This document shows, one piece after another, positions 5,731-39,548 of a stretch of DNA of 40,520 bases. This DNA is from Bacteroidales bacterium (GTDB lineage Bacteria; Bacteroidota; Bacteroidia; Bacteroidales; F082). The notes beneath the pieces are model-generated. The model was not told the DNA's origin, did not search any database, and worked only from the letters and a program-made list of their open reading frames with translations. The DNA lies in NCBI GenBank assembly GCA_017537965.1, contig JAFYJV010000002.1:1-40520 (forward strand). Direction: 5' to 3'. Position 1 is the stretch's first letter; each line of letters begins with the position of its first letter. The position numbers and the translations under genes were made by a program.

Positions 5731-5751
5731 GTTGGAAATTTGAAATTTGAG
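5731..5751 (+). repeat. Heptad array, 3 units
   Basis: Three 7-base units (GTTGGAA, ATTTGAA, ATTTGAG) fill most of the gap between the DUF1573 gene stop and yajC. It belongs to the family of degenerate intergenic heptads seen across this window. Confidence 0.6.
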
Positions 5752-5768
5752 TATAGATATTAAGAGCT

Positions 5769-6107
5769 ATGAGTACATTAATCGTATTGTTACAAGCGGC
5801 CCAGCAGAATGCTGAAGGCGCCGTCCAAGGTCCCGGAAGGTTTTCAGGCCTGTTGATGATCGGCTTGATAATCCTGGTCTTCTGGCTGTTCTTCATCCGT
5901 CCCCAGTCGAAACGTGCCAAAGAGCAAAAACGTTTCCGCGATGAGTTGAAGAAAGGCGATCCCGTGGTCACCATTGGTGGCTTCCATGGCAAGATTACCG
6001 AGGTGAAGGAAAACACTGTGATGGTCTCCCTCGCCCCTGGCACTGAAGTGGAAATTGAGAAGTCGGCACTCGTCCAGAACGCCTCGCAGGTAGGTGGACA
6101 GGCCTAA
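5769..6107 (+). CDS. yajC: Preprotein translocase subunit YajC
   Basis: 112 residues. A single membrane helix at about 24-45 (LMIGLIILVFWLFFIRPQ) ends in the family signature FFIRPQSKR. It is followed by a cytoplasmic region with KKGDPVVTIGGFHGKITEV, the conserved YajC core. YajC associates with SecDF and the SecYEG translocon in the inner membrane. Length and topology are normal. It lies between a DUF1573 lipoprotein and a YbbR-like protein, the usual Bacteroidales order. Confidence 0.96.
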   Translation: MSTLIVLLQAAQQNAEGAVQGPGRFSGLLMIGLIILVFWLFFIRPQSKRAKEQKRFRDELKKGDPVVTIGGFHGKITEVKENTVMVSLAPGTEVEIEKSALVQNASQVGGQA

Positions 6108-6122
6108 TCAGATCCTTATGCC

Positions 6123-7088
6123 TTGAATCAGGTCGAACAGATAAAGGAGGAAATCGTACAGAAGGACAAGAGCCGCTTCCTGACCTTCCTGCTGTTTGTG
6201 GTCATTTCCACGGCCCTTTGGTTTCTGATCAAGCTTACCAAGGACTATTCCACGCAGACGGTGTTCCTGGTGCGTTATACGGAGGTGCCGGTGAACAAAT
6301 GGGTCTCCACGCCTGAGCAGCAAGTGAAGCTGACCTTCGTGGGCGATGGCTTCGTGACCTTGGGACACAACTTGGTGAGGAATCATCGCCGTGTGGTGGA
6401 GATCTCACTGAGCGAAGTGCCATATAGGCTGGAGGGTGGCTTCACTTATTCCTATAGTTCGCAGTATGTGGCCGAGAAAGTGGCCGATTGGCTCAATATC
6501 CCTACAGGCAATGTCACCATCAACGACGACAAGCAGTATTTCAACATGGAGGATCTCCAGTCGAAAGAGCTGCCAGTAACGGTGTTGATGAGTGTCAAGA
6601 CACAGCGTCAATATGGCGTCTATGGCGATCCAAAGGTCGATCCGCCGACAGTCACCGTGTTCGGCCCCAAGAATCTGCTCGACACCCTCAACTATGTCAC
6701 CACAGAATGGCTTCGCGCCGAGAATGTCAGCGAGGACGTGCATCGCACCTTGAAAGTCGATTTGTATGAAGGTGCCATCCGCTCGGCTGTCGAGTCGGTG
6801 GAAGTGTCCGTCGACGTGGAGAAATTCACTGAGATGGACGTGGAGGTGCCGGTCACGATACATGACTCGCTCTCGGTGCGCTTCTTCCCTGAGACGATGA
6901 AGGTGAAGTGTATGGTGGCCATCAGGGACTTCGCTTCCGTCACTCCGTCTTCCTTTCAGGTGCTTGCCGATACGGCACAGCTGCATCGACGCGAGCCGCT
7001 GCTGGATATCGGGCTCTTCAATGTCCCGGAACACGTGCAGGTGCTGAAGTCGGAGCCGAAGCAGGTGGAGTATTTGATTATTAATTAG
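6123..7088 (+). CDS. YbbR-like domain membrane protein
   Basis: 321 residues if it starts at TTG 6123. The preceding in-frame stop is that of yajC at 6105-6107, and the ATG at 6118 is out of frame and stops at once, so TTG is the best start. A membrane helix at about 20-40 (FLTFLLFVVISTALWFLIKL) leaves a short cytoplasmic N-terminus and a long periplasmic part with repeated beta YbbR-like segments (LPVTVLMSVKTQRQYGVYGDPKVDPPTVTVFGP, VEVPVTIHD). In Firmicutes the YbbR protein CdaR regulates the diadenylate cyclase CdaA. No cyclase gene is present here, so that role cannot be carried over. The gene sits between yajC and coaE as in other Bacteroidales. Its stop codon is the start of a heptad array. 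Confidence 0.85.
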   Translation: MNQVEQIKEEIVQKDKSRFLTFLLFVVISTALWFLIKLTKDYSTQTVFLVRYTEVPVNKWVSTPEQQVKLTFVGDGFVTLGHNLVRNHRRVVEISLSEVPYRLEGGFTYSYSSQYVAEKVADWLNIPTGNVTINDDKQYFNMEDLQSKELPVTVLMSVKTQRQYGVYGDPKVDPPTVTVFGPKNLLDTLNYVTTEWLRAENVSEDVHRTLKVDLYEGAIRSAVESVEVSVDVEKFTEMDVEVPVTIHDSLSVRFFPETMKVKCMVAIRDFASVTPSSFQVLADTAQLHRREPLLDIGLFNVPEHVQVLKSEPKQVEYLIIN

Positions 7089-7121
7089 AAGTCAGAAGAC
7101 AGAAGTTAGAAGTCGGAAGAC
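7087..7121 (+). repeat. Heptad array, 5 units
   Basis: Five units of the form AGAAGTC/AGAAGAC/AGAAGTT with strict 7-base spacing. The array begins within the ybbR stop codon (TAG 7086-7088) and ends 31 bases before coaE. Confidence 0.85.
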
Positions 7122-7152
7122 GGTATTTAATTACGAGTCAATCGGATAGGGG

Positions 7153-7740
7153 ATGAGAATAGCAATTACGGGAAATATCGGCAGTGGGAAAAGCTACGTC
7201 TGTTCCCTTTTCAAGGGCTTGGGAATACCTGTGTTCGATTCTGACTACGAGGCAAAGCGGCTGTATGATCTTCCTGAGATCCGTGAGCGCATCATTGCGC
7301 GTTTTGGGCCGGAGATGTATCAGGAGGATGGAAGCCTTGACCGCAAGAGACTTGCCGATCGGCTGTTCTCCGACTCCTGCTCTTTGGGTTTCGTGGAGTC
7401 CATCTTGTATCCCGCCTTGAACGAGCGCTTTCTCCAGTGGGCCGATCGACAAACGGCGCCGTATGTCTTGTATGAGTCCGCTCTGGTCTTCGAGAAGCAT
7501 CTGGAGCCGCTTTTCGATGCGATCATCGTGGTGTCGGCTTCCGAGCAGACAAGAATCCGTAGGGTGATGTCGCGTGACCATTGCGATGAGGGCAAGGTGC
7601 GCTCGCGCATGGCGTTACAATGGCCTCAGTCCGAGAAACTATCTAAAGCCGACTATGTCATCGTTCACGAAGAGGATGACGAAGATGCTGCCTTGATGGA
7701 ACAGATCCTAAGGATTCATTCCGTGTATTGCGGGAAATAA
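7153..7740 (+). CDS. coaE: Dephospho-CoA kinase
   Basis: 195 residues. Phosphorylates the 3'-hydroxyl of dephospho-CoA with ATP, the last step of coenzyme A synthesis. The P-loop GNIGSGKS is at residues 7-14, followed by FDSDYEAKRLYD and the adenylate-kinase-like lid region with RVMSRDHCDEGKVRSRM. Size is typical for the family. It closes the DUF1573-yajC-ybbR-coaE run. Its last 25 bp overlap the 3' end of the endonuclease I gene on the other strand (stop codons at 7738-7740 and 7718-7716), so there is no room for a separate terminator. Confidence 0.96.
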   Translation: MRIAITGNIGSGKSYVCSLFKGLGIPVFDSDYEAKRLYDLPEIRERIIARFGPEMYQEDGSLDRKRLADRLFSDSCSLGFVESILYPALNERFLQWADRQTAPYVLYESALVFEKHLEPLFDAIIVVSASEQTRIRRVMSRDHCDEGKVRSRMALQWPQSEKLSKADYVIVHEEDDEDAALMEQILRIHSVYCGK

Positions 7741-11427: not shown

Positions 11428-14400
11428 TCAAAAATATTTGATTCTGAAGCGTTGGGCATGTTCTCCTTCCTTTGAAATAAAGGTGTAAGACGGGTTTTTG
11501 AGCAGGTCAATGTCATCGCCAGTCAGACTATCAATAAGGTGTAAGTACTCCAGCGTCATGTTTTCAACATGGATACTTAGGGTATAAGAGCCGTTGTCGC
11601 TTGTCTTGAAGCAGACGGGCATCTCACCCTGCTTTTCGGCGTTGACAACCGCAAATTCGTTCTCATCCAAATCGAAATAGATCTTGGTGTTGTCCTCGTG
11701 GAGCATGATCTTGTCAAGGTCGCGGGTTTGGTCGAAGCGGATGACGGCTCGGTCGATGACGGTGCCTTCTTCTTGGCTGACATTGATCACGATGGCCTTG
11801 GCGGGTGTTACGGCACCTTGGGTGAAGGTGATGCTCCCGTCGTTGGCATTTTCAGCCACCACGAAGATGCCTTGCATCGGGTTGACGGCGTTGGTCTCGG
11901 CGGTGATGATTTCAGTGCCTTCTTCGTTCATCACGTAGAAAGGACGTCCGTCAGCGATGGAGGCTGCCATGCCGAATGGGTTGCCCACGAGGTTCCAGCC
12001 GGCCATCGTGTTGTCGGCGGAATAACTCAAGTTGACGGTGCCGTTGGTGTTGGCTTGTCCCTCAAATCGGAGGGTCACCGTGTTGTTGTTTGCGTAGAGA
12101 TAGCCCTTGCCAGCTGCCAGGTTGAACGCATTCGTCTTGTGATTGCGCCATTCTTCAAGCTCGGCAGTCTGGTCGAATTGATAGAGGTCGTATTCGGCTT
12201 CCAACAGGTTGTTGACATTGGTTGGCGTGGTCTCTCCCATGACAGGCGAGGCGATGAGGTGCCAGTGATTGTCGTTTTCGCCATAGCCAGTGACATCGGT
12301 ATAATAGGTGCGGGTCTCCTCTTCGTCCTTCACATAGAGATAGATGTCATGCTGTGTCGAGTTTGAGGCATAGCACGAGAAGATGGTGTTGGAGCTGTTG
12401 TAGCGCATGGTGTTGCGGCCTTCCATATTGGCCACCACGGAGGCGGCATGGGTATCGGGGTCGAAACTGATGGCCCATTGGCCCTTGTTGTCGCAGAAGG
12501 TCTGAGTCCTCAAGTAGTTGTTGCTGTTGGCACCTGCGGCAAAGAGGTAGCCGGTAGAGGCTTCGTTGGCATCGTAGATGGTATAGAAGCCGTTGACATC
12601 GGGACCGTTGATGACGAACTCATAGACCTCGTCGTTGATTACACTGGCGACGCCTTGGTTGATGATGACATCGGCTGCTGCGCGGTTGTTGCTGTTCTGC
12701 AAGCCCATGGCCTTGTCGGTGCCGTTGGCGATGATATAGTGTCTTCCTGACTCGATGGTGGTGGCCAGTGTATAGTTGACCGCATTGGGGATGACCGTGG
12801 CAGTGGCGTTGACGGTGGCGTTGTATGACGGCATGGTGAACGTCCAAGTGCCATTGGCATTCTCTGTCAATGCGACATCTGATCCGTCGTCGCCGGTGAC
12901 GGTAAGGCTTTCAAACATGTAACCTGCGGTGATTTCGAGGGCGAGGGTGACGTCGGTGCCATTTTGGATGGTGGCCGATTGTCCGTTGCTGAGGCTGGCG
13001 GTGCCGTAAGTGGCGGTGATGGTCACGTTGTCGGGGTTGCCGATGGTCAGCGTGTAGTCCTGCGGCTCGGCGTAGGCTTCAAGTACGATGTTGCCCAAGG
13101 CCACGTTGCCGCTCACCTTTTCGGTATAGATCCACTTGATGTAACGGACGTTTTCACCGAGGTTGTTGAACGACTCGGACTGGGTGTTGCCCAGCTCCGT
13201 GTAAGCGGCCAGTTCGGTGAAGGTCTCGCCGTCTTCAGAAGTCTGCACGGTGAAGGTGCCGCCTGAGAAGCTGTTGCCCTTGATGTCGAAGCTGAGTCGG
13301 CCTGGGCGTCCGTCGAAGTAGAGTTGCACGTAGTCGCCGGCGCCGTCGAACTTCAGCTTGGGCGAAGAACCATAGTCATCGCCGAGGCCGTTTTGGATGA
13401 GACCGGTGGTGGTGGCGATGTCGCTGCGGCCGCCGTCGAAGGCGAAGGGCAGGGTGGCGGGTACCTCAACAGGTGGCTCGCCGCCTTGGGTGACGGTGAC
13501 GTCGGTGGTGTTGACGAGCTGCACGGCGTTGTAGCAGCCCACGTTGGCCGTGAAAGTGAGCAGGTCGTTCACCTCATAGTTGACGCTGCTGGGGATGTTG
13601 CGCAAGGAGATGCTTTGTCCGTCTTGCTCGATGGTGGCGATTGTTCCGCTCTTGGCAGTCACGGTGGCGTTCTCGATCCTCACCAACCAGGCTTGCAAAG
13701 CGTTGTCGGCGGCATAGTCGGCATTGATGGCCGCGATAGTCGTCAATTCAGGCGTGACGGTGTTGCCTTGTGAAAGGATCGTGTAGGAGGGGCTGGTGAT
13801 TTCGAGCAGTCCGTTGTACTCGGCCAACTTACCTTGCACGGAGATCTCATCGCCCATGGTGAGGTCGGTGATGTTGCTGTCGGCATAGACCACGATGGCA
13901 GCGGTGGCGTCTTGGATGTAGGCGTTTTTGCCGTTGATGCTGGTTACGGTGCCGATGGTGTTGACGTTGGTGGTTAATTCTTGTACGCGCACTTCGGCGA
14001 TGGTCAGTAGGGTGGTGGTGTTTTCGGTGGCGGTTGCATCGACGTTGGCGTCACAGTCGGGCATCTCGAAGGTCCAGGTCTCGCCGACATGGGTCAGCGT
14101 GAACGGATCGCCTGCGTCGTTGGTGACGGTGAGCGATTCGAGCGTGTAGCCTTCCTCAACTTCGAGGGCGATGGTGATCTCGGTGCCGCTCAACACCTGC
14201 TCATAGTCGCCATTGGTGAGGCTGTTGCCCACGCCGTAGGTGGCAGTGATGGTGACATGGTCGGGGTCGCCGATGGTCAGGTAGTATAAGGCTGGTTCGG
14301 CATAGGCTTTCAGCTCGATGTTGCCTAAAGCCACGTTGCCGCTGACTTTCTCTGTATAGATCCACTTGATGTAGCGGACGTTTTCACCGAGATTGTTGAA

Positions 14401-17400
14401 CGACTCGGACTGGGTGCTCCCCAGTTCTGTGTAGGTGGCCAGTTCGGTGAAGGTCACGCCGTCTTCAGAAGTCTGCACGGTGAAGGTGCTGCCTGAGAAG
14501 CCGTTGCCCTTGATGTCGAAGCTGAGTTTGCCGGGACGTTGGTCGAAGTAGAGCAGCACGTAGTCGCCGGTGCTGTTGAACTTCAGTTTGGGCGATGCGT
14601 TATAGTCGCTGTCGAGGCCATCTTGGGTGAGCCCTGTGATGTCGGCGATGTCGTCGCGACCGCCGTCGAAGGCGAAGGGCAGGGTGGCGGGATCCATTAC
14701 GGGAGGTTCGCCACCGCCTGGGTTGGCGGCCTGGGTCACGGTCACGTTCTTGGTGATGGCTTCACTGGTGCCGTAAGTGTAGGTGAGGGTGACGGTGGCG
14801 CTGCGTGGGCTCGTCTCGGGGTTGACCACGGTGCTGAAGGTGACGGTCTCGCCGACGGTGAGGTTGGTGATCCAGTCGGCCTCGGTGCTGGCGGTCAAAA
14901 CGCCACCCTCAACGGGGTTGTTGACGGTGTAGCCGATGGTGCCTTCAGTGGCGTCGTAGTCTAGCGACACATTGTTGGCAGTGATGCTTGGTCCCATTAC
15001 TACAGGGATATCGCCCAAGATGAACAGGGCGATCTGGGTGTCCTTGATGTTGTTGTGTATGGTGGTGTAGGCACGCCAATCTTGGTTGTTATACACGCCC
15101 AGATAGCGCGAGAATGCCACGTTCTTGAAGCCGTGGTAGTCATTTTCTTCGGAGGTGATGTCGAGTTCCCACACGTTGTTTTCATTGGTGCCTACACGCA
15201 CGCCGTTGTTGGTGTCGGTAGAATAGAGCCATTTGGTGTTGTCGCTCACGGGGTGGATGATATAGCCGCCATCAGTGGCTTCGAAGGTCCATTGGATGGT
15301 GAGGTCGTCGGTGGTGATCTGGCTGTTGGCGTCGATGGTGACTGCTACTAGAGTGGGAGCCGATGAGCTGCCGTTGGCGCTGGTGAGGGCGCTTCCTGAA
15401 GTGAGATCCACAATGAGGTAAGTCTGGCCTTCTGTCACGGTATGTCCTGCAGTGAGTGAGAAGATCTGCGGTTCGACGGGTTCGACGATGGTATATTGTG
15501 CGGAGCTGATGGAACTGTCGTCCATGTCATCTGCGAAGGCGTAAGCCCAGATGGTGGTGGTGGTCTCTACCAAGATGGGCTCGGAATATGTCGTCCACGG
15601 ACCGTTTTGCGACTCGGTGCTGTAAACGATGATAGCGCCTTCGGTAGCACAGGCGATCTCAACGGTTTGAGCTTCGTTGTAGGTGCCTGCGGCAGGGCTG
15701 AAGGTCGGGGCGGCCACCATCGACTGGTTGTGTTCGATAGATACCAGATAGTTGCCTTGATCCAGCTCGTAGGTGGTGTTGTAGAGCTTCAGAGTGCCAA
15801 ACACGGTGACAATGTCGCCCACCAAGAGGTCATTCTCCGAGGTGAATTCGGTGTTGTTGAGGCCTTTGCCGCGGTAGGCTTGCAACTGAGGACTCTCGGT
15901 GGTGCCGTCGTCGGAGATGTTATAGGAAATGTTGCCATATTGTGAGTTGAAGGCGGTGACGATACCAGAGACGATGCCGTGTACATAGACATCGGCGAGG
16001 CCGGTGTTGGCTTCGATGGCGGCGCGGGCCTGTTCCACGGTATAGGGGTTATTCACGGTACCTGGGCCGTTGGGATCGACGATGTTATAGACGGCGGTAG
16101 CCACTTGGCTGGCGTTGTCGTTGTTGTCGTAGGCGATGGCCTTGATGGTGGTGGTTTGGCTCACGGTGATGGGGCCGGTGTAGGTAGTGCTTTCGTCGTC
16201 GGGCGTGCTGCCGTCGGTGGTGTAATGGATGGTGGTGTTGGGGGTGGCGCAGGTGATGGTCACCGTTTGGGCTTCTTCGTAGGTGCCTCCCACGGGATCG
16301 AAGACTGGGGCTTCGACGGTGAAGACAGGAGCGATGTAAGAGACGAGTTGATTGTTGGCCTCGAACTCATAGGTGCTGCCATATTTTTTCAGATTACCAA
16401 AAATCACTACGGTGGCACCTACCTGAACATCGTCTTCGGAGGTGAAGTGGGCACCATCGAAACTAAAGCCTCGGTAAGCCTGAAGTTGGTCGGCGGTAGT
16501 AGAGCCATCGTCGGAGATGTTATAGGTGATGTTGCCATATTGAGCGTTAAAGGCAGTCACAATTTCTGAAACGATACCCGTGGCATACACACCTTGTGTG
16601 CCTGTGTTGGCATCGATGGCTTCGCGGGCTTGTTCCACGGTATAGGGGTTGTTGAGCGATCCTGGGACGTTGGGGTCGCTGTTGGTCACCGTCAGCGCGT
16701 AGTTGGCGTGCGAGGAGCCATACACTCCCTCTTGACCTGCATAGCTTGCGGTGAGGGTGGTGGTGCCGGTGGCGACCAGGGTCACGTATCCTGCATCGTC
16801 GATGATGGCAACGCCGGTGTTGCTCGACGACCAGGTGACGGCGGCTCCAGGGAGGGGGCTGCCGCCTGCGCTCACGGTGGCACTCAGCCATCCGGCTGCG
16901 GTGCCCTCATAGAGGTTGGTATTGGTGATGTTGCTGGCATCGATGGTGACGGTGGTAGGTGTGATGGTGGAGCCGCCGTCTTCCTCGGCGTTCACGCCGA
17001 AGACCACGAAACGCTTTCCGCCAGTGGCAGTAAAGGTGAGGTCAGTGTCGGAATCCAAGGCGGATTCGAAGGTGATCACCTTGTAGTAGTCATCGGTGGA
17101 CGGATCGCCGTTGAAGGTGAATGGCGAGTTGTTGGCAATGCCCGAGTTGGCAGTCAAAGGGATGTCGTTGGCATAGCCCGTGGGGGTGACGGTTAAAGTG
17201 ATGCTTTCGTTGTTCCAAGCCGCGACGTGGAGGTGAAGGTGCCGGGTGCCTGCAGGGACGCTGAGTTTCCATGCGCCAGCTACTTTGCCGGTGCCCGCCT
17301 TGATGCCGTCGTATGAGGTGCCGCTGACAACCACCGCGCAAGTAGAGGCGTTCGTTCCTCCTTCGGTGGATAAGGTCACATTGCTAGTGTAGGTTGTCGA

Positions 17401-17472
17401 ATGGTCGGTTTGTGCCCAGCCGATACTGACCAGCAAAAGGAGCGCAACGATTAAAAGGGTAAATCTCTTCAT
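11428..17472 (-). CDS. 2014-residue mosaic surface protein
   Basis: Signal peptide 1-20 (ends IGWA-QTDHS). Visible modules in order: Ig-like (Big_2 type) at about 171-264; OB-fold-like NPYTVEQAREAI module 274-379; chitobiase-type C-terminal beta domain 387-466 (TIHYTTDGSTPDD); a second OB-like plus beta-domain pair 474-664; a GQTYLIVDLTSG module 670-825; a BACON-like domain 826-912; a discoidin-like ATLPFAFDGGR module 928-1062 with a divergent InlB-type repeat to 1155; an OB-fold-like segment 1162-1330; a second ATLPFAFDGGR module 1338-1467 and InlB-type repeat to about 1570; a HYIIANGTDKAMGLQNSNNR module 1568-1715; and a C-terminal region ending SYTFISKEGEHAQRFRIKYF. No catalytic domain is recognised. 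The set suggests glycan or surface binding outside the cell. The ending is widespread on Bacteroidales surface proteins, but I see no standard T9SS type A or B signal. Confidence 0.85.
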   Translation of the reverse strand: MKRFTLLIVALLLLVSIGWAQTDHSTTYTSNVTLSTEGGTNASTCAVVVSGTSYDGIKAGTGKVAGAWKLSVPAGTRHLHLHVAAWNNESITLTVTPTGYANDIPLTANSGIANNSPFTFNGDPSTDDYYKVITFESALDSDTDLTFTATGGKRFVVFGVNAEEDGGSTITPTTVTIDASNITNTNLYEGTAAGWLSATVSAGGSPLPGAAVTWSSSNTGVAIIDDAGYVTLVATGTTTLTASYAGQEGVYGSSHANYALTVTNSDPNVPGSLNNPYTVEQAREAIDANTGTQGVYATGIVSEIVTAFNAQYGNITYNISDDGSTTADQLQAYRGFSFDGAHFTSEDDVQVGATVVIFGNLKKYGSTYEFEANNQLVSYIAPVFTVEAPVFDPVGGTYEEAQTVTITCATPNTTIHYTTDGSTPDDESTTYTGPITVSQTTTIKAIAYDNNDNASQVATAVYNIVDPNGPGTVNNPYTVEQARAAIEANTGLADVYVHGIVSGIVTAFNSQYGNISYNISDDGTTESPQLQAYRGKGLNNTEFTSENDLLVGDIVTVFGTLKLYNTTYELDQGNYLVSIEHNQSMVAAPTFSPAAGTYNEAQTVEIACATEGAIIVYSTESQNGPWTTYSEPILVETTTTIWAYAFADDMDDSSISSAQYTIVEPVEPQIFSLTAGHTVTEGQTYLIVDLTSGSALTSANGSSSAPTLVAVTIDANSQITTDDLTIQWTFEATDGGYIIHPVSDNTKWLYSTDTNNGVRVGTNENNVWELDITSEENDYHGFKNVAFSRYLGVYNNQDWRAYTTIHNNIKDTQIALFILGDIPVVMGPSITANNVSLDYDATEGTIGYTVNNPVEGGVLTASTEADWITNLTVGETVTFSTVVNPETSPRSATVTLTYTYGTSEAITKNVTVTQAANPGGGEPPVMDPATLPFAFDGGRDDIADITGLTQDGLDSDYNASPKLKFNSTGDYVLLYFDQRPGKLSFDIKGNGFSGSTFTVQTSEDGVTFTELATYTELGSTQSESFNNLGENVRYIKWIYTEKVSGNVALGNIELKAYAEPALYYLTIGDPDHVTITATYGVGNSLTNGDYEQVLSGTEITIALEVEEGYTLESLTVTNDAGDPFTLTHVGETWTFEMPDCDANVDATATENTTTLLTIAEVRVQELTTNVNTIGTVTSINGKNAYIQDATAAIVVYADSNITDLTMGDEISVQGKLAEYNGLLEITSPSYTILSQGNTVTPELTTIAAINADYAADNALQAWLVRIENATVTAKSGTIATIEQDGQSISLRNIPSSVNYEVNDLLTFTANVGCYNAVQLVNTTDVTVTQGGEPPVEVPATLPFAFDGGRSDIATTTGLIQNGLGDDYGSSPKLKFDGAGDYVQLYFDGRPGRLSFDIKGNSFSGGTFTVQTSEDGETFTELAAYTELGNTQSESFNNLGENVRYIKWIYTEKVSGNVALGNIVLEAYAEPQDYTLTIGNPDNVTITATYGTASLSNGQSATIQNGTDVTLALEITAGYMFESLTVTGDDGSDVALTENANGTWTFTMPSYNATVNATATVIPNAVNYTLATTIESGRHYIIANGTDKAMGLQNSNNRAAADVIINQGVASVINDEVYEFVINGPDVNGFYTIYDANEASTGYLFAAGANSNNYLRTQTFCDNKGQWAISFDPDTHAASVVANMEGRNTMRYNSSNTIFSCYASNSTQHDIYLYVKDEEETRTYYTDVTGYGENDNHWHLIASPVMGETTPTNVNNLLEAEYDLYQFDQTAELEEWRNHKTNAFNLAAGKGYLYANNNTVTLRFEGQANTNGTVNLSYSADNTMAGWNLVGNPFGMAASIADGRPFYVMNEEGTEIITAETNAVNPMQGIFVVAENANDGSITFTQGAVTPAKAIVINVSQEEGTVIDRAVIRFDQTRDLDKIMLHEDNTKIYFDLDENEFAVVNAEKQGEMPVCFKTSDNGSYTLSIHVENMTLEYLHLIDSLTGDDIDLLKNPSYTFISKEGEHAQRFRIKYF
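13075..13461 (-). repeat. Internal repeat A, copy 2 (C-terminal)
   Basis: About 387 bp encoding the second ATLPFAFDGGR module. It is nearly the same as 14305-14691 at a constant offset of 1230 bp, without visible gaps. Confidence 0.85.
14305..14691 (-). repeat. Internal repeat A, copy 1 (N-terminal)
   Basis: Encodes the first ATLPFAFDGGR module. Long stretches, such as the codons for SFNNLGENVRYIKWIYTEK, are the same in protein and nearly the same in DNA as in copy 2. The high DNA identity points to a recent duplication or gene conversion. Confidence 0.85.
15481..16080 (-). repeat. Internal repeat B, copy 2
   Basis: A 600-bp unit holding one OB-like module and one chitobiase-type beta domain. 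It aligns with 16081-16680 at an exact 600-bp offset at several points (for example the shared run at 16031-16050 and 16631-16650). It is more diverged than repeat A. Confidence 0.8.
16081..16680 (-). repeat. Internal repeat B, copy 1
   Basis: Tandem partner of 15481-16080. Conserved blocks are NPYTVEQARxAIxANTG, YNISDDG, LQAYRG and GTYxEAQTVxIxCAT. Confidence 0.8.
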
Positions 17473-18823: not shown

Positions 18824-19954
18824 ATGAAATTCACTTTGTCAGCGACCGACCCGAAGAGCAATGCTCGTGCGGGATTGCTGCATACCGACCATGGGGTTGT
18901 CGAGACTCCCATCTTCATGCCCGTGGGTACCGTGGGATCCGTCAAGGCATGCCATATCCGCGACATCCGCGACGAGGTTAAGGCGCAGATCATCCTGGGC
19001 AACACCTATCACCTCTATCTGCGTCCAGGGCTCGACATCCTGGAAGCGGTGGGGGGACTGCATCGTTTCAACGGATGGGATCGGCCCATCCTCACCGACA
19101 GTGGCGGCTTCCAGGTGTTCTCCCTCACCGGTATCCGCAAGATGAAGGAGGAGGGCGTGGAGTTCCGTTCCCATATCGACGGATCCAAGCATCTCTTCAC
19201 CCCGGAGCGTGTGATGGACATCGAACGGAGCATCGGAGCCGACATCGTGATGGCCTTCGACGAGTGTACCCCCGGAACCGCCGACTATCATTATGCCAAG
19301 CAGTCGATGGAACGCACTCACCGCTGGCTCGACCGCTGCGTGGAGCGTTTCACCACCACCGAGCCGAAATACGACTATGGACAGTCGCTTTTCCCTATCG
19401 TCCAAGGCTGTGTCTATCGCGACCTTAGGGAACAGTCGGCGGAGTATATCGCCTCGAAAGGCGCCGATGGCAACGCCATCGGCGGCCTCGCCGTGGGAGA
19501 ACCCACGGAGAAGATGTATGAGATGATAGAACTCGTCAACAGCATCCTACCGAAAGACAGACCCCGTTATCTCATGGGCGTCGGCACCCCGGCCAACATC
19601 CTCGAAGGCATCGAGAGAGGCGTCGATATGTTCGACTGCGTCATGCCTACCCGCAACGGACGCAACGGCATGATATTCACCTCCGAAGGCATCATCAACC
19701 TCAAAAACGAGAAGTGGCGCAACGACTTCTCCCCCGTGGATCCGAAGGGAGAAACTTTCGTGGATGCACAATATTCAAGGGCCTATCTGCGTCATCTTTT
19801 CGTCTCGGGTGAGATCCTCGGCCCCATGATCGCCAGCCTCCACAACCTCGGCTTCTATCTTTGGCTCGTCAGGGAGGCGCGAGCCCATATCCTTGTGGGC
19901 GACTTCCGCGAGTGGAAGGCCGACATGCTGCCCAAAGTCACGCGAAGACTGTAA
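18824..19954 (+). CDS. tgt: tRNA-guanine transglycosylase (queuine tRNA-ribosyltransferase)
   Basis: 376 residues from ATG 18824, 16 bases after the -7 box; an earlier in-frame ATG at 18746 would run through the promoter. Swaps guanine-34 of GUN anticodons for preQ1 in queuosine synthesis. Visible motifs: TDSGGFQVFSL with the catalytic Asp, the MAFDECTPG block, GGLAVGEP, and MFDCVMPTRNGRNG with the second catalytic Asp. The C-terminal zinc site, normally CxCxxC plus a His 26 residues on, is changed: the three Cys positions are Gly309, Thr311 and Asp314, while His340 remains at the right spacing. The fold seems otherwise whole, so the enzyme may work without structural zinc. The lptF/G-type gene follows after 6 bp. 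Confidence 0.96.
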   Translation: MKFTLSATDPKSNARAGLLHTDHGVVETPIFMPVGTVGSVKACHIRDIRDEVKAQIILGNTYHLYLRPGLDILEAVGGLHRFNGWDRPILTDSGGFQVFSLTGIRKMKEEGVEFRSHIDGSKHLFTPERVMDIERSIGADIVMAFDECTPGTADYHYAKQSMERTHRWLDRCVERFTTTEPKYDYGQSLFPIVQGCVYRDLREQSAEYIASKGADGNAIGGLAVGEPTEKMYEMIELVNSILPKDRPRYLMGVGTPANILEGIERGVDMFDCVMPTRNGRNGMIFTSEGIINLKNEKWRNDFSPVDPKGETFVDAQYSRAYLRHLFVSGEILGPMIASLHNLGFYLWLVREARAHILVGDFREWKADMLPKVTRRL

Positions 19955-24307: not shown

Positions 24308-25828
24308 ATGTTCACGGAAAACAAAGAGTTTTACATTGCCCATTGCGACAACGGACCGCTTTATCTGGTGGGCAAGATGGCGAACCGCCATGGATTGATA
24401 GCCGGTGCCACGGGTACGGGAAAGACTGTGACGCTGCAGGTGATTGCGGAGTCGTTCAGTCAGGCAGGAGTCCCCTGTTTCATGGCGGATATGAAAGGCG
24501 ACCTCTCTGGCATCTGCCAGCCTGGGGCGATGAGCAGCTTCATCGAGAAACGCTGTCCCGAGTTCGGCATCACCGATCCTCAGTTCAAAGGCTGTCCCAC
24601 ACGATTCTTCGATGTGTTTGGTGAACAAGGGCATCCGTTGAGGGCTACCATCTCCGACATGGGTCCCCAGCTGCTGTCGCGTCTCCTTGGCCTTAACGAG
24701 ACCCAGACGGGCATCATGAACATCGTGTTCAAGATCGCCGATGACCGTGGGCTGTTGCTGATCGACATGAAAGACCTGCGTCTGATGCTGGATTATGTGG
24801 CGAAGAATGCCAAGGAGTTTACCACCACCTATGGCACCATCACCTCGGTGAGCGTGGGTGCCATCCAGCGCGCCTTGCTCGCGCTGGAGGCGGAGGGTGC
24901 CGACCTTTTCTTCGGCGAGCCCGACTTCGACGTGTTCGACTTCCTGCAAACGGAAGGGGGGCAGGGCGTTATGAACGTCCTCGCCGCCGACAAGCTGATG
25001 CTGAACCCGAAGCTCTATTCCACCTTCCTGCTCTGGCTGCTGAGCGAGCTCTACACGCAGTTGCCCGAGGTGGGCGACCAGGAGCTGCCCAAGCTGATCT
25101 TCTTCTTCGACGAGGCGCACATGCTGTTCAAGGACACCTCGAAGGCGTTGGTTGACAAGATCGAGCAGGTCATCCGTTTGGTGCGTTCCAAGGGCGTGGG
25201 CGTTTATTTCGTCACCCAGAATCCCGACGACATCCCGGAGGCCATCGCAAGCCAGCTCGGCAACCGTGTCCTCCATGGCCTTCGTGCCTATACCCCCAAG
25301 GAGCAGAAGGCCGTCAAGGCTGCTGCCCAGACCTTCCGCACCAACCCCAACTTCCGCACCGAGGATGCCATCCTGGAGCTTGGGACGGGCGAGGCCTTGG
25401 TGTCGTTCCTCGATGCCAAAGGCGCACCGAGTATTGTGGAAAGGGCCAAGATACTCTTCCCGCTCAGCCAGATCGGCGCCATCACCGAAGAACAGCGCAG
25501 CTCGATGATCCGCAACTCCCGTTTCTACGGCAGGTACGACAAGACCATCGACCGTGAAAGTGCCTACGAGGTGCTCGTCGAACAGCAGCGTCGTGAAGAG
25601 AAACAGGCCAAGGAAGAGGCCGAAGCTGCTGAGAAACGCAAGGCTTGGGAAGCCAAGGAGAAAGAAAAAGCCAAGGCCTCAAAGAGCAAGTCGAGTTCCA
25701 AGTCCACCAAGAAGTCAACGGGGAAGAAGGCGCTTGAAAAGACCATCAACACCACTGCCACGACATTCGGACGTCAGCTCGGGAAGTCGATTTTCAGGTC
25801 AATTTTGGGAGGAATCTTCAAAAGCTAA
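24308..25828 (+). CDS. HerA-like ATPase (DUF853/YjgR family)
   Basis: 506 residues. A RecA-like ATPase of the HerA/FtsK class: Walker A GATGTGKT near residue 33, ADMKGDLSG, Walker [13 protein letters not shown] near 262, [12 protein letters not shown] (sensor region) and [11 protein letters not shown]. The C-terminal quarter turns into a charged segment (about 420-490, [21 protein letters not shown] and Lys/Ser runs) before a short hydrophobic end, as is usual for YjgR proteins. No nuclease partner such as NurA is next to it, so a DNA-end-resection role is not supported by context. The function of the YjgR family is not established. Its stop lies 4 bp from the convergent pcm stop. Confidence 0.92.
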
Positions 25829-34290: not shown

Positions 34291-35379
34291 ATGAGAGCGA
34301 AGAGAGACCTCCAGTCGCCAAGTGCGTTGTCGTGGCAAAAGTTCCGGCGTAACAAGCTGGGCATGACGGCGTTGGCGTTCATCGTCATGGTGGCCTTGCT
34401 GGCACTCTTCGCCTATTACATTATCCCCGACCCAACACCCCATGCCAACCGTCAGCTCTTGGAGTTGAGCACCCGAAAGCCCGGCTTCGAAGTCGATATG
34501 TTGGTGCTTCCGAAGGAAAACCCTCCTGCGAAGGTGGGCTTCCTGGAAAGGCTTCTCTATGGCCGACCCGACGACTGCACCTATTTGCCTTACGACAGCC
34601 TTCAGGTCTTCGCCGACCACACCTTGGTCTATCTGTTCAATCCCGAACAGGGCGGCAGCGTGCGGGTTCAGGAGATCCCCAACAGCGAGATCGCTGGCAC
34701 ACGGCATCAGAAGTTCCTGCTGGGTACCGACCAGTTTGGACGTGACTTCCTGAGCCGTCTGGTGTTGGGAAGCCGCATCAGCCTATTGGTAGGCTTTATC
34801 GCCGTCTCGCTCAGCTTGCTCATAGGTATCCTCATCGGCAGTCTGGGCGGCTTCTTCAGGGGAAAGGTTGACGACGTGGTGGTTTGGCTGATCAACGTGG
34901 TGTGGTCGATCCCGACGCTGCTTTTGGTCATCGCCATCACTTTCGCCTTGGGCAAAGGCATTGCACAGGTCTTCATCGCCGTGGGACTCACCATGTGGGT
35001 GGAGGTGGCACGCATCGTCCGTGGACAGATCTTCTCGGTGCGCGAGATGACCTACGTTGAGGCTGGCAAGGCCTTGGGATTTCGCAATATCCGTGTCATC
35101 TTGCGGCATATCCTGCCCAATATCGTCAATCCCATCATCGTGGTATCCGCTTCCAACTTCGCCTCGGCCATCCTATTGGAAGCTGGCTTGAGTTTCCTCG
35201 GTATCGGGGTGCAGCCGCCCATGCCTTCGTGGGGCAGCATGATCAAGGAGAACTACGCCTTCATCATCCTCGACGCCGCCTATCTTGCCATCCTGCCTGG
35301 CATCGCCATCATGTTGCTGGTGCTGGCATTCATGCTGGTGGGGAACGCCCTTCGCAGCGCTATTGACAATAAGAGTTAG
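34291..35379 (+). CDS. ABC transporter permease, OppC/DppC type
   Basis: 362 residues. Inner-membrane permease of the peptide/nickel class. The N-terminal SPSALSWQKFRRNKLGMTALAF fits the OppC_N segment. After the first helix (about 24-44) comes a long periplasmic stretch to about 145, then FLLGTDQFGRDFLSRLVLGSRISLLVGF, helices at about 160-345 and the EAA loop (YVEAGKALGFRNIRVILRHILPNIVNPI) that docks the ATPase. The periplasmic stretch is longer than in E. coli OppC. No OppB, ATPase or binding protein gene is nearby, so its partners must lie elsewhere. The stop codon falls in the first unit of a heptad array. Confidence 0.93.
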   Translation: MRAKRDLQSPSALSWQKFRRNKLGMTALAFIVMVALLALFAYYIIPDPTPHANRQLLELSTRKPGFEVDMLVLPKENPPAKVGFLERLLYGRPDDCTYLPYDSLQVFADHTLVYLFNPEQGGSVRVQEIPNSEIAGTRHQKFLLGTDQFGRDFLSRLVLGSRISLLVGFIAVSLSLLIGILIGSLGGFFRGKVDDVVVWLINVVWSIPTLLLVIAITFALGKGIAQVFIAVGLTMWVEVARIVRGQIFSVREMTYVEAGKALGFRNIRVILRHILPNIVNPIIVVSASNFASAILLEAGLSFLGIGVQPPMPSWGSMIKENYAFIILDAAYLAILPGIAIMLLVLAFMLVGNALRSAIDNKS

Positions 35380-35402
35380 GAATGAGGAATGAGAAATGAG
35401 GA
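35375..35402 (+). repeat. Heptad array, 4 units
   Basis: Units GTTAGGA, ATGAGGA, ATGAGAA, ATGAGGA. The first unit contains the permease stop codon TAG. The array ends 8 bases before the ruvX -7 box, covering its -33 position. Confidence 0.75.
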
Positions 35403-35410
35403 ATTTTTAT

Positions 35411-35436: not shown

Positions 35437-35853
35437 ATGGCAAGGATCATGGCAATCGACTTGGGAAGGAAACGCTGCGGCGTGGCTGTCACCGACCCGC
35501 TTCAGATCATCGCCAACGGCCTGACTACCGTCGAGAGCGGCAAGCTGGCCGATTGGGTGGTGGACTATGTGCGGAACGAAGAGGTGGAGATGATCGTCAT
35601 CGGCGAGCCGAAGGACATGCACAACAACCCTTCTGACTGCGCGCAATTCATCGAACCCATCGTGAACCGGCTCCGTAAGCTGCTTCCCAACATGAAGATC
35701 GTGCGTTACGACGAAAGGTTTACCTCGGTGATGGCGCATCAAACCATGATCGATGCGGGACTGAAAAAGAAACAACGGCAGGACAAGGCCTTGGTGGATA
35801 CCATCGCGGCCACCATCCTCCTGCAATCCTACATGAATACTTCTAACTTCTGA
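35437..35853 (+). CDS. ruvX: Holliday junction resolvase-like protein RuvX (YqgF)
   Basis: 138 residues. RNase H-fold nuclease linked to pre-16S rRNA 5' processing in E. coli and to junction resolution. The N-terminal catalytic stretch MAIDLGRKRCGVAVTD has the first Asp, VIGEP comes next, then RYDERFTSVMAHQ and a final DTIAATILLQSYM with the C-terminal Asp. Length is typical. The last codons (TSNF and stop) lie inside a heptad array. It leads the ruvX-def-TPR string. Confidence 0.95.
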   Translation: MARIMAIDLGRKRCGVAVTDPLQIIANGLTTVESGKLADWVVDYVRNEEVEMIVIGEPKDMHNNPSDCAQFIEPIVNRLRKLLPNMKIVRYDERFTSVMAHQTMIDAGLKKKQRQDKALVDTIAATILLQSYMNTSNF

Positions 35854-35873
35854 CTTCTAAATTCTAACTTCTA
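35839..35873 (-). repeat. Heptad array, 5 units, reverse orientation
   Basis: On the plus strand the units are ACTTCTA, ACTTCTG, ACTTCTA, AATTCTA, ACTTCTA; on the minus strand they read TAGAAGT-like. The array encodes the end of ruvX, holds its stop codon and ends 5 bases before def. It is the only array in the opposite orientation. Confidence 0.85.
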
Positions 35874-35878
35874 AAACA

Positions 35879-36445
35879 ATGATTCTTCCAATCGTAGCAT
35901 ACGGCCATCCGACCTTGAAGGCGATAGCCAAGGACATCGACAAGGACTACCCTGAGCTGGAGAAGCTGCTTGCCGACATGTGGGAGACGTTGGCGCACTC
36001 CGAGGGTGTGGGCTTGGCGGCTCCTCAAGTGAACAAGTCGATACGGCTGTTTTTGGTGGACGCCGATCCTTTTTATCCCGACTACCCTGACGCCAAAGGC
36101 TTCAAGCAGGTCTTTATCAACGCCAGGCTGATCGACACCTTCGGCGAGGAAGTGCCGTTCAAGGAGGGCTGCCTGAGCCTTCCCGGCATCTTCGAGGAGG
36201 TGATGCGTCAAGACGGCATCCGCATCAAGTATCTTGACGAGAACTTCGTGGAGCACGAGGAGGAGTTTACGGGCATCAAGTCGAGGATCATCCAGCACGA
36301 GTACGACCATCTGGAAGGCCATGTGCATGTGGATCGTATCGCGCCGATGCGCAAATTCCTGCTTCAAGGCAAGTTGCGCGACATCTCGGAAGGGAAGTGC
36401 GATGCGGATTATAGGATGATTTTTCCTAAGAAGAAGAGAAGATAG
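35879..36445 (+). CDS. def: Peptide deformylase
   Basis: 188 residues. Removes the formyl group from the N-terminal methionine of new proteins. All three metal-site motifs are present: GVGLAAPQV, EGCLSLP with the metal-binding Cys, and QHEYDHLEG with both His ligands and the catalytic Glu. The lysine-rich end (FPKKKRR) is usual in Bacteroidota. Starts 26 bp after ruvX, and the gap between them is taken up by the array. The stop codon TAG is the first triplet of the next array. Confidence 0.97.
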   Translation: MILPIVAYGHPTLKAIAKDIDKDYPELEKLLADMWETLAHSEGVGLAAPQVNKSIRLFLVDADPFYPDYPDAKGFKQVFINARLIDTFGEEVPFKEGCLSLPGIFEEVMRQDGIRIKYLDENFVEHEEEFTGIKSRIIQHEYDHLEGHVHVDRIAPMRKFLLQGKLRDISEGKCDADYRMIFPKKKRR

Positions 36446-36470
36446 AAGTAAGAAGTAAGAAGTAAGAATG
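36443..36470 (+). repeat. Heptad array, 4 units
   Basis: Units TAGAAGT, AAGAAGT, AAGAAGT, AAGAATG. It begins exactly at the def stop codon TAG (36443-36445). Confidence 0.85.
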
Positions 36471-36500: not shown

Positions 36501-37037
36501 ATGAAAAAGACTGTATTAATAGCGGTAATGATGCTTCTTGCGATAGCGGGATGCAACCGAAACACGAAAGTGACAGAAAACGATGTGAAAAAGGCCGAGG
36601 ACGCCTTGTTCAGCGAGAGTGGGATGGCCAACGAAGAGGCCGTGCCGAATGCCATAGAGACGTTCAGCAAGTATGCCGAAGAAAACCCCGAGGCTGCCAA
36701 CGCCCCCGAGTATCTGTTCAAGGCATTGGAAGTGTCGGTGAACACCAAGCAGGATCCCCAACAGTCCATCGACTTCTGCAACCGGCTGGTGACGACCTAT
36801 CCTCAGTTCGACAAGAATCCCGTGGCGCTTTTTATGCTGGCCACCTTCGTGTATGACGAACAGCTGCACGACCTCGACAAGGCGCGTGCAGCCTATCAGC
36901 AGGTGATCGATCAATATCCTGACAGCCCGTTCGCCAACGACGCCTCCATTGCTATCACGCAACTTGGAATGACTCCAGAGGAGTTGATCAAGATGTTTGA
37001 AAGTAATGAGAAGTCAGAAGACAGAAGTCAGGAGTAA
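36501..37037 (+). CDS. Tetratricopeptide-repeat lipoprotein
   Basis: 178 residues. Lipobox MKKTVLIAVMMLLAIAGC with Cys18 lipidated. The mature part is helical with two to three TPR units (about 45-165): ETFSKYAEENPEAANAPEYLFKALEVSV and LDKARAAYQQVIDQYPDSPFANDASIAI, like YfgC/BamD-type repeats. It probably stands in the envelope and binds protein partners; no partner is known. The last ten residues (NEKSEDRSQE) are encoded by a heptad array, so the natural C-terminus likely ended near LIKMFES. Convergent with metK. Confidence 0.85.
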   Translation: MKKTVLIAVMMLLAIAGCNRNTKVTENDVKKAEDALFSESGMANEEAVPNAIETFSKYAEENPEAANAPEYLFKALEVSVNTKQDPQQSIDFCNRLVTTYPQFDKNPVALFMLATFVYDEQLHDLDKARAAYQQVIDQYPDSPFANDASIAITQLGMTPEELIKMFESNEKSEDRSQE

Positions 37038-37062
37038 GAAGTAAGAAGTAAGAAGTAAGAAG
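37007..37062 (+). repeat. Heptad array, 8 units (longest)
   Basis: Eight 7-base units in perfect register, from TGAGAAG and TCAGAAG to four exact copies of TAAGAAG (37035-37062). The first four encode the end of the TPR lipoprotein; the TAA of the fifth is its stop codon. It ends 18 bases before the metK stop. Confidence 0.9.
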
Positions 37063-37079: not shown

Positions 37080-38405
37080 CTAAATGCTGAATTCTTTCCT
37101 AAGGTCCTCCACCAGATCAAGTTTTTCCCAACCGAAGAACTCCACGTTCTTGTAGGTCTTTTTGTCTTTGGAGAAGGTCTCCTTATCCTTGTAGAAGACT
37201 TCGACGGGCTTGACTTCGGGTTGGCGACCGAAGTGGCCGTAGGAAGCCGTCTCCTCGAAGATGGGGTTGGTGAGGCCGAAGCGTTTCACGATGGCGTATG
37301 GTCGCAGATCCACCATGTTGCGGATCTTCTCGGCGATGGCTGCATCGCTGAGGATCTTGCCATGGCTGTCTTTGGCGTGCCCGGTGCCTTCGGTGTTGAC
37401 ATAAAAGCCCACTGGTTCGGCGATGCCGATGGCGTAGGCGATCTGCACCAGGGCCTGGTCGCAGAGGCCGGCAGCCACCATGTTCTTGGCAATATGGCGT
37501 GCGGCGTAGGCTGCCGAGCGGTCCACCTTCGAGCTGTCCTTGCCCGAGAAGGCGCCGCCGCCGTGGGCACCACGACCGCCGTAGGTATCGACGATGATCT
37601 TGCGACCCGTGACACCGGTGTCGCCGTGGGGACCGCCGATGACGAACTTGCCCGTCGGGTTGACGAAGATCTTCATGTCTTGGTCGAAGAGCTTGCGGAG
37701 CTTGGCCGGCAGTTTGCGCTTCACCCTCGGGATGAGGATGTTGAGCACGTCGGCCTCGATCTTATCGACCATGCGCTCGTCGGCCTCGCGCTGGGCCTCT
37801 TCGCTGTCATCGGCAGGACGGATGAAATCGTCGTGTTGGGTGCTGATGACGATGGTGTCGATTCTCAAGGGTTTCCAGCCGTTTTCGTATTCCACCGTGA
37901 CCTGCGACTTGGCGTCGGGGCGGAGGTATTTCATCTGCTTGCCTTGGCGGCGGATAGCGGCGAGTTCCTTCAAGAGGAGATGCGCCAAGTCGATGGTCAA
38001 AGGCATATAATTCTCGGTCTCGTTGGTGGCGAAGCCGAACATCATGCCTTGGTCACCGGCGCCCTGTTCCTCGGGCTTTTCGCGGCCCACGCCCATGTAA
38101 ATGTCATTCGACTGGCCGTGGAGGGCGGAGAGGACACCGCAGGATTGGGCGTCGAATTGGTACTCTGACTTGTTATAGCCGATTTTGTCGATCACGCGAC
38201 GGGCGATGTCCTGAATCTCGACGTAGGAGTTGGTGCGGATCTCGCCGGCAACGACAACGAGGCCGGTAGTGACAAGCGTTTCACAAGCCACCTTTGAAGA
38301 GGGATCGTAACGGAGTATCTCATCCAATACGGCATCCGATATTTGATCGGAAACTTTGTCGGGATGGCCTTCAGAGACCGATTCCGAAGTAAAAAAATAA
38401 CCCAT
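37080..38405 (-). CDS. metK: S-adenosylmethionine synthetase
   Basis: 441 residues, longer than the 384 of E. coli but normal for Bacteroidales. Makes S-adenosylmethionine from methionine and ATP. The N-terminal [18 protein letters not shown] has the catalytic His, [12 protein letters not shown] is the ATP-binding hexapeptide region, and [28 protein letters not shown] carries the phosphate-binding [12 protein letters not shown] 38405 follows a 128-base leader that holds a SAM-II-like aptamer, so the enzyme is likely switched off by its own product. Convergent with the TPR gene. Confidence 0.98.
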
Positions 38406-38528: not shown

Positions 38529-38538
38529 TTTTGCGCTG

Positions 38539-38546
38539 CAAAGGTA
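38539..38546 (-). promoter_or_regulatory. Predicted -7 box of metK
   Basis: TACCTTTG on the minus strand. The start point would be near 38534, just before the riboswitch. The -33 position lies inside the hairpin 38549-38587 and holds no TTTG. Confidence 0.5.
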
Positions 38547-38548
38547 CG

Positions 38549-38587
38549 AATAATTTTGGACGCGGCATCGCCGCTTCCAAAATTATT
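38549..38587 (-). terminator. Long hairpin between the ABC ATPase gene and metK
   Basis: Outer arms of 12 bp (AATAATTTTGGA at 38549-38560 and complement at 38576-38587), one mismatch, then inner arms GCGGC/GCCGC with a 3-base loop. It overlaps the stop codon of the ABC ATPase gene and lies 2 bases from the metK -7 box. There is no clear T run behind it on the minus strand. Confidence 0.65.
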
Positions 38588-39491
38588 TCGTCAACTTTTG
38601 GAATGCCTCCTCGATGGTGATGTCTTCCTTTTGCAAAGTTTTGATGATGAGCTTGTTGTCGAGCGACCATTTCATGAGGTTGGCGCGGATGTCGATGTCG
38701 CCTTCGGGTTCGAGGATCCAGTGGTTGTCCTTGACACGTTGCACTTTGCATACCTGGGGGATGCTGAGCAGCTGTTGCTGTCCCACCTCGCTCTCAAACT
38801 CGACGATGATGACGTTGCTTGACGATCCCGTCTGCTTGAGGTTCTCGATCTTGTCGTCGGCCACCACCACACCTTTATTAATAATGATGGCGCGTTGGCA
38901 GATGGCTTCCACTTCCTGCATGATGTGGGTGGAGAGGAGCACGGTCTTCTCTTTGCCTAGGCTGGAGATGAGGTTGCGGATGTCGATGAGTTGGTTGGGG
39001 TCGAGACCCGAGGTGGGTTCGTCGAGGATGAGCACCTGCGGGTCGTGCATCATGGCTTGGGCGAGGCCGACACGTTGTCGGTAGCCTTTGGATAGGGCAC
39101 CGATCTTCTTGTGCGCCTCTAGTCCGAGCCCAGTCTCCTCGATCATCTGTTCGATGCGTCGTTTTGCGGTCTCGCCTTTGAAATGGTGGATCCCGGCGAC
39201 AAAGCCTAGGTATTCGCGCACGTACATGTCGAGATACAACGGGTTGTGTTCGGGGAGATAGCCCACGATGCGTTTCACCTCCATGGGTTGGTCCATGACG
39301 TCGAAGCCGTTGACGCTCACCGTTCCCGAGGTGGGAGGGATGAAGCAGGTGATGATCTTCATCAGCGTTGACTTGCCTGCGCCGTTGGGACCCAAAAGGC
39401 CCACGATGCCTTTGTCGATGCTGAGTGTGACGTCGTTCAGGGCGAGTTGCTCGCCGTATTGTTTGGTGATGTTTTGGATCTCGATGGACAT
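38583..39491 (-). CDS. ABC transporter ATP-binding protein, GldA-like
   Basis: 302 residues from ATG 39491; an in-frame ATG at 39512 would add seven residues that overlap the promoter. ATPase domain with Walker A GLLGPNGAGKST, the Q-loop region YLPEHNPLY, the signature LSKGYRQRVGLAQAM, Walker B VLILDEPTSGLDP and the H-loop STHIMQE. The C-terminal 80 residues form a small accessory domain. Length and motifs fit GldA, the ATPase of a Bacteroidota ABC system tied to gliding motility in Flavobacterium and also present in non-gliding Bacteroidales. No membrane partner (GldF/GldG) is next to it. The substrate is unknown. Confidence 0.85.
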   Translation of the reverse strand: MSIEIQNITKQYGEQLALNDVTLSIDKGIVGLLGPNGAGKSTLMKIITCFIPPTSGTVSVNGFDVMDQPMEVKRIVGYLPEHNPLYLDMYVREYLGFVAGIHHFKGETAKRRIEQMIEETGLGLEAHKKIGALSKGYRQRVGLAQAMMHDPQVLILDEPTSGLDPNQLIDIRNLISSLGKEKTVLLSTHIMQEVEAICQRAIIINKGVVVADDKIENLKQTGSSSNVIIVEFESEVGQQQLLSIPQVCKVQRVKDNHWILEPEGDIDIRANLMKWSLDNKLIIKTLQKEDITIEEAFQKLTK

Positions 39492-39509
39492 TCCTTTATT
39501 ATTTGGGGG

Positions 39510-39517
39510 CAAAGTTA
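39510..39517 (-). promoter_or_regulatory. Predicted -7 box of the ABC ATPase gene
   Basis: TAACTTTG on the minus strand, 18 bases before ATG 39491. It overlaps the first unit of a heptad array, which also covers the -33 place. Confidence 0.5.
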
Positions 39518-39548
39518 GGAATTTAGAGTTTAGAATTCGGAATTTAGA
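39514..39548 (+). repeat. Heptad array, 5 units
   Basis: Units GTTAGGA, ATTTAGA, GTTTAGA, ATTCGGA, ATTTAGA on the plus strand. Unlike the others it lies between two divergent promoters, not after a stop codon. Confidence 0.7.

Follow-up and report, generated by a model that had tools for sequence, protein, structure and literature searches.

Degenerate heptanucleotide arrays at gene ends and in isoleucyl-tRNA synthetase loops of an F082-like Bacteroidales lineage

The window analysed here, a 40,520-nt stretch of contig JAFYJV010000002.1 from a Bacteroidales bacterium (assembly GCA_017537965.1), carries arrays of degenerate 7-nt units around the ends of its genes. We find that these arrays are heptanucleotide simple-sequence repeats, that is, head-to-tail 7-nt units, longer than chance and mostly intergenic. 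Our best reading, held at about even confidence, is that they arise as 7-base copying errors, seeded from the flanks and mirrored by template switching, and are retained where proteins and promoters tolerate them. The host genome (G000), from an uncultured gut bacterium, is a 2.32-Mb assembly of 41 contigs, 93.8% complete and 4.1% contaminated. Compared by deformylase, the 21 named loci closest to it (75-87% identity) are all metagenome-assembled genomes with Bacteroidales or Bacteroidia in their titles, 'bacterium F082' among them; rumen, horse or deer is the source of many. Going by these loci, we call the host genus, an uncultured one, putatively F082-like.

An earlier, sequence-only reading of the window listed nine arrays with strict 7-base spacing. 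This spacing is seen in all nine, but only seven stand alone against shuffled sequence. The 23 spacers of the window (3131 bp with margins) hold seven period-7 segments scoring at least 11, against a shuffled mean of 0.02 and a maximum of 1. The null consists of 400 dinucleotide shuffles of these spacers, in which 95% of the best scores are at most 9.5 and one reached 15.5. Among periods 3-15, at a score of at least 10, period 7 gives seven segments, its multiple 14 gives five, period 4 gives one and the rest give none. Seven of the listed arrays lie above the 9.5 mark; the two at 21044-21071 and 39514-39548 are marginal, under the 95% mark of the shuffle maxima. The core proposed for the nine, TNAGRA, is a fair summary of the window arrays, and the main unit in the host genome is AGAAGTN.

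The arrays recur throughout the genome outside the window, and period 7 exceeds shuffled sequence in a 440,520-base genome sample as it does in the window spacers. At a score of at least 14 this sample contains 29 segments of period 7, 8 of period 14 and 6 of period 21, and no other period between 2 and 30 exceeds 4; a single Markov-shuffled copy contains none. The pattern of the commonest unit has 59 exact matches in the 2.32-Mb genome (25 forward and 34 reverse, many overlapping within one array), and its reversed control has none there. Among 60 genomes, a triple of AGAAGTN is found in 12 including the host, 11 of them among 36 from the genus and one among 24 from other families of the order. 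The reversed AGAAGTN control matches in three of the 60, once each in G031 and G045 and 14 times in G027, which therefore seems to have a different unit. Period-7 arrays scoring at least 13 are present in all 16 sampled genus genomes (58-440 kb each) with differing units and at 25-250 per Mb, a range that is not unbiased because the genomes were partly picked for known arrays. Density is lower in other Bacteroidota loci (30 arrays in 872 kb versus 34 in 335 kb of genus loci). Arrays of 8-mers or mixed 7- and 8-mers occur in the same kind of spacer in the relatives L022, L031, L035 and L169.

Position is biased towards spacers. In the host's own 440-kb sample, 45 arrays lie in spacers (with 30- and 10-bp margins) and 9 in coding sequence. 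The following counts by spacer type, by start and stop codon and by sense or antisense strand cover 15 genomes; G018, near-identical to G072, is excluded from them and from the comparison of units within and between genomes. Genes were called by our own hexamer script, so that starts and some small genes are uncertain. Arrays occupy 0.19% of coding bases; of spacer bases they fill 4.3% where the flanking genes are in tandem, 5.0% where these converge and 1.1% where they diverge. An array is present in 94 of 614, 29 of 111 and 10 of 169 of these three kinds of spacer, respectively. A stop codon boundary is overlapped by 71 of 165 arrays and lies within 10 nt of 47 more, and a start codon is overlapped or within 10 nt in 39 of 117. 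The proposal that the arrays sit in intergenic gaps after genes is borne out as a spacer bias, but several extend into the last codons of the upstream open reading frame (ORF) and are not confined to the gap.

Orientation also depends on the neighbouring gene. Of the arrays in tandem spacers, 35 of 44 near stops have a sense purine strand, and 7 of 9 near starts an antisense one (Fisher p 0.0018); arrays with a purine fraction of 0.45-0.55 are omitted from the orientation counts, and 40 mid-spacer arrays (24 sense, 16 antisense) are left out of this comparison. A single rule describes both this result and the inverted pairs below: read 5' to 3', the purine strand tends to point away from the gene beside it. 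Where neighbouring arrays lie on opposite strands, the purine arm comes first at 20 of 22 distinct sites, and the two reverse sites are both of the GCCAG type. The count of 20 is slightly low, because grouping by flank similarity merged two L021 sites with one L094 site. Six of 17 inverted pairs, at four distinct sites, are wholly within one called gene, and RNA folding of the 17 gives minimum free energies of -9 to -55 kcal/mol as raw values without shuffle control. In the G004 pair the arms match over about 34 nt by eye, with the variable letters mirrored, and in G020 (5885-5954) the unit differs between the two arms. The two exceptions, with the pyrimidine arm first, are GC-rich TGGCTNC / GCCAG pairs downstream of the isoleucyl-tRNA synthetase (IleRS) gene in L148, L151 and L159, and in L025 at 19336-19432.

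Pooled over 16 genomes, the purine strand approximates RTNNRRA, a motif chosen first and then fitted; its final A varies least, and most of the variation falls on T and N. The main units AGAAGTN, AGTTAGG and AATTTAG contain no GGG, and certain G023 units hold GGGG. Units resemble each other more within a genome than between genomes: 26.8% of within-genome pairs (0.268) differ by at most one mismatch versus 13.0% of between-genome pairs (0.130), a result reached by 0 of 2000 label shuffles, and random heptamers give 5.1%. Arrays less than 150 bp apart were merged for this comparison and the tests below; in the comparison, this together with the removal of G018 took the set from 181 to 163. The pooled test gives 0/2000 in all four genome sets. 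In one of these sets, eight genomes of similar G+C, the average per genome is weak (350/2000). That average stands at 175/2000 without the host's own genome, at 102/2000 for own, G020, G023 and G061, and at 2/2000 for G020, G023, G061 and G034. The sharing effect is carried by array-rich genomes. A site-level test of whether the unit follows its genome at the IleRS and deformylase sites is suggestive only (344/5000).

Related species carry different units at the same site, both in the IleRS loops and in the spacer between ruvX and deformylase. Deformylase was not found in 8 of the 30 loci compared; some of the relatives' arrays 5' of its start are of the AACTGAT/TAACTGA type. A general rule that arrays before start codons are G-poor is rejected, since G020 and G023 break it with purine-rich arrays before the deformylase start. 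The palindrome GTAGAGACGCGATTAATCGCGTCTCTAC or a near copy occupies the spacer that hosts arrays in other species, upstream of deformylase in L028, L039 and L068, and lies downstream of it in L022. G018 and G072 are a close pair; two arrays can be placed in both genomes, with equal unit numbers in each. One G072 array corresponds to other sequence in G018, the spacer of one G018 array differs in G072, and two arrays are unplaced.

The clearest comparison comes from IleRS, in which arrays and inverted pairs lie in frame at two loops. An array is detected at loop 1 in 9 of 30 genomes; its unit is GAAGACN in the host, GGAAAAC in G023, GGAAAGT in G061 and CAACTCT in G018, G072 and G081; the search expression missed this loop in 2 of the 30 loci. 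At loop 2 the 30 genomes show eight inverted pairs, four purine-only arrays, two copies of the short form FKLKGMDN and 16 other sequences, and the frames are open in all 30. The host is among the 16, much of whose sequence is hairpin-like by eye. In the array-bearing loop 2 genes the first unit is native coding sequence (AAGTTGA, AAACTGA or AAGTTAG). Here the arms pair better with their own partner than in most swaps between species: 98 of 40320 arrangements are equal or better, or 31 of 5040 without the sister genome G018. Loop 2 (L131-L160) also contains several other hairpin-like inserts in different species, among them one coding for VRLPQCDSP that is present in 7 of the 30 genomes, the host included. 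Palindromic inserts thus seem to collect in this loop as in a hot spot.

How these features could arise is best described by slippage and template switching, which native seeds, 7-nt steps and mirrored arms fit. The first step would be a short purine-rich seed, either at the end of a gene or where a surface loop of a protein is encoded. Such seeds would grow in 7-nt steps during DNA copying, probably by slippage, and would occasionally be mirrored by template switching to give an inverted partner. Selection would then purge arrays from most coding sequence and from promoter-bearing spacers, tolerance acting as the filter, and for this reason survivors would be left downstream of stops, within short spacers and, in frame, in loops that tolerate them. 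We infer both the absence of a dedicated function and the way in which one unit becomes common in a genome. Local slippage from a shared seed had already been suggested from the window. Its seeding step is visible at IleRS loop 2, but as a whole it is insufficient, predicting neither the unit sharing nor the purine-first pairs.

Several observations weigh against the copying-error explanation. Unit sharing in array-rich genomes is not easily explained by local slippage alone, and simple slippage does not predict a bias of 20 purine-first sites to 2. No slippage is seen between G018 and G072, as the two placed arrays are equal in unit number. Furthermore, the arms of G010 at loop 2 mismatch each other, and for some species the arm of another species scores higher. 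The purine-first bias and the sharing of units would also allow a process that is directional or acts in trans.

Among the alternatives, we consider it rather unlikely that the arrays are selected elements of mRNA 3' ends, in which a purine run after the stop, plus a hairpin formed with a second array, would end or protect the transcript. Such elements would match the enrichment in tandem and convergent spacers and the rarity in divergent ones, the sense bias near stops (35/44) with antisense near starts (7/9), and the strong folding of the inverted pairs in RNA, with the control limit stated above. In Xanthomonas, too, transcript starts and stops are commoner at G4-forming than at control repeats, according to excerpts of PMC4692102. 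Against this, most arrays are single and lack a partner for a hairpin, six of the 17 inverted pairs lie wholly inside one called gene, and sense and antisense are near even (24/16) when an array fills a short tandem spacer. The arrays may still have a 3'-end role. It is highly improbable that the arrays serve to supply stop codons in every frame downstream of genes. The unit length is not a multiple of 3 and many units carry TAA, TAG or TGA on the purine strand, but 14 of 37 unit junctions in sense arrays of host tandem spacers are TC or AC and stop-free, and several species use stop-free units such as GGAAAGT and CAACAAT. The presence of stop-free units in sense arrays weakens this reading. 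The chance that we are looking at coincidence or an assembly artefact is close to nil, even though the host genome and its relatives are largely metagenome assemblies: the arrays are far above shuffles, occur in 16 of 16 sampled genomes, and return at the same IleRS site with open frames in separate assemblies.

A further alternative is that 3' ends at DNA breaks receive repeats in trans, templated by or primed on other arrays, much like interstitial telomere repeats. Two extended ends would yield the purine-first pairs at 20 of 22 sites, also within genes, and addition in trans would account for pairs with unlike units per arm (G020 5885-5954) and for unit sharing within genomes. DRT10, a bacterial reverse transcriptase described in excerpts of PMC12632851 as making tandem-repeat DNA in a telomerase-like manner, also counts for it. 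Yet some pairs are near-perfect mirror copies, unexpected from independent additions, and the reverse transcriptase profile PF00078 (RVT_1), positive in 20 of 36 genus genomes, has no match in the host or in 16 of the 36 including array-bearing G010, while G018 has one match and few arrays. We judge the trans route improbable. As candidate agents, a reverse transcriptase is rejected on the absence of RVT_1 matches in G000, where enzymes outside the profile are possible; Ku has no match in G000 or in any of the 36 genus genomes; and the Y1 transposase profile of the REP/RAYT system (PF01797) has none in G000, which is 93.8% complete, and is positive in 27 of the 36. Broader still, and a long shot, is the idea that heptad arrays in several phyla are scars of one directional process that extends 3' ends in trans with a genome-specific 7-base unit. 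If true, it would be a bacterial parallel to interstitial telomere repeats, and the layout published for Xanthomonas and Nostoc would reflect that process acting with a different unit.

Within the window, all arrays but one have their purine strand on the plus strand, and most touch the end of an ORF. The array listed from 5731 spans 5723-5750 (score 13.5) with about four units (GTTGGAA ATTTGAA ATTTGA) and overlaps the end of ORF 5254-5730. That at 7074-7123 (core 7087-7121; score 15.5; AGAAGTC AGAAGAC AGAAGTT AGAAGTC GGAAGAC) straddles the 3' end of the YbbR-like ORF 6123-7088. The marginal array at 21044-21071 (score 8.0; TTTAACG ATTTAGG ACTTAGG ATTTAAA) lies immediately 3' of the LptF/LptG ORF 19961-21043. 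At 24271-24305 (score 11.0) the units TTGAGAT TTAGAAT TAACAAT TAAGAAT TTAGAGA cover the end of the methyltransferase ORF 23611-24294, just 5' of the HerA-like ORF 24308-25828. The array listed from 35375 spans 35370-35404 (score 15.5; GTTAGGA ATGAGGA ATGAGAA ATGAGGA) and straddles the 3' end of the permease ORF 34291-35379. The minus-strand array at 35839-35874 (score 19.0; purine strand TTAGAAGTTAGAATTTAGAAGTCAGAAG and onward) covers the end of ruvX (35853) and leaves a gap of 4 nt to the start of deformylase (35879). The array listed from 36443, at 36437-36468 (score 20.0; TAGAAGT AAGAAGT AAGAAGT AAGAA), straddles the 3' end of that deformylase ORF (35879-36445). The longest array, listed from 37007, spans 37009-37062 (score 34.5; 7.7 units of AGAAGTN, 89% matches in Tandem Repeats Finder); the TPR ORF 36501-37037 ends within it, convergent with ORF 37080-38405. 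The second marginal array, at 39514-39548 (score 9.0; GTTAGGA ATTTAGA GTTTAGA ATTCGGA ATTTAGA), is upstream of the start of the minus-strand ORF 38583-39512. Elsewhere, ORF 37080-38405 contains a 21-bp tandem duplication at 37154-37197, ORFs 2191-3942 and 4021-5241 carry the type IX secretion tails Por_Secre_tail and CHU_C, and a 2014-codon ORF occupies 11428-17472.

In-frame palindromes within coding genes are familiar from the Rickettsia palindromic elements. Coding genes of Nematomorpha mitochondria contain them as well, as described in excerpts of PMC6649704, and IleRS resembles both systems in having inverted repeats in frame within the gene of an essential protein. It differs from the Nematomorpha case of those excerpts, where the arms encode conserved protein, in that here a variable loop carries arms made of heptads. 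The tandem repeats of Borgs, as far as excerpts of PMC9879509 describe them, likewise lie in spacers and ORFs, at times beginning within an ORF end, and have a base bias; unlike ours they are perfect copies with ORF units in multiples of three, whereas here the unit is 7 nt and degenerate.

The suggested kinship to heptanucleotide repeats of other bacteria holds, and the kind and layout of the repeats are already published. Heptamers are the commonest long simple sequence repeats of prokaryotes (Mrazek 2007, as cited in excerpts of PMC4679880 and PMC4692102). Excerpts of PMC6749651 describe satellites derived from heptamers such as (GATAGRA)n in Chloroflexus, a class similar to ours in unit length, spacer bias and, for GATAGRA, purine richness. 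For the GGGAATC and GGGGA(T/C)T heptads of Xanthomonas and Nostoc, excerpts of PMC4692102 report 183-186 arrays per Xanthomonas genome, about 90% intergenic. Up to 50 bp downstream of stops the G-rich strand is sense, and up to 50 bp upstream of ORFs it is antisense; convergent pairs number 70 and 75 cases, arrays are rarer between divergent ORFs, and Nostoc has few inverted pairs. Our arrays share the 7-nt unit with fixed and variable positions, the strand layout and the convergent inverted pairs. They differ in that the units of those excerpts are capable of forming G-quadruplexes while our main units have no G-triplet, that units here vary among related species, and that arrays lie in frame in the IleRS loops of many species.

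Excerpts of PMC4679880 describe TAACTGA direct repeats in Beggiatoaceae, Cyanobacteria and five Bacteroidetes. These are also intergenic heptamers by starts and stops, some reversed just after a stop and some in ORFs; Bacteroidetes are among their carriers, and AACTGAT-type arrays occur in our host's relatives. They have one fixed unit, unlike the several degenerate units found here, and the units listed for the host differ from TAACTGA. The view that this lineage had no description agrees, for the genus, with literature searches covering open-licence PubMed Central papers, which found no account of heptad repeats, but it does not extend to Bacteroidetes at large. 'Bacteroid' has 0 occurrences in PMC6749651 and PMC4692102.

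Two features not seen in the cited excerpts are units that differ between species at one site within an essential gene, and the published geometry with units that have no G-triplets. Heptads were framed as possible G-quadruplexes in excerpts of PMC4692102, and the present units speak against the generality of that view. Arrays whose units lack G-triplets obey much the same positional and strand rules, so that quadruplex formation is unlikely to account for the layout in general. The IleRS loops offer a natural experiment, with one essential gene, 30 species, the same sites and different units; since the sites are shared while the units differ, the origin of heptad repeats can be tested by comparison.

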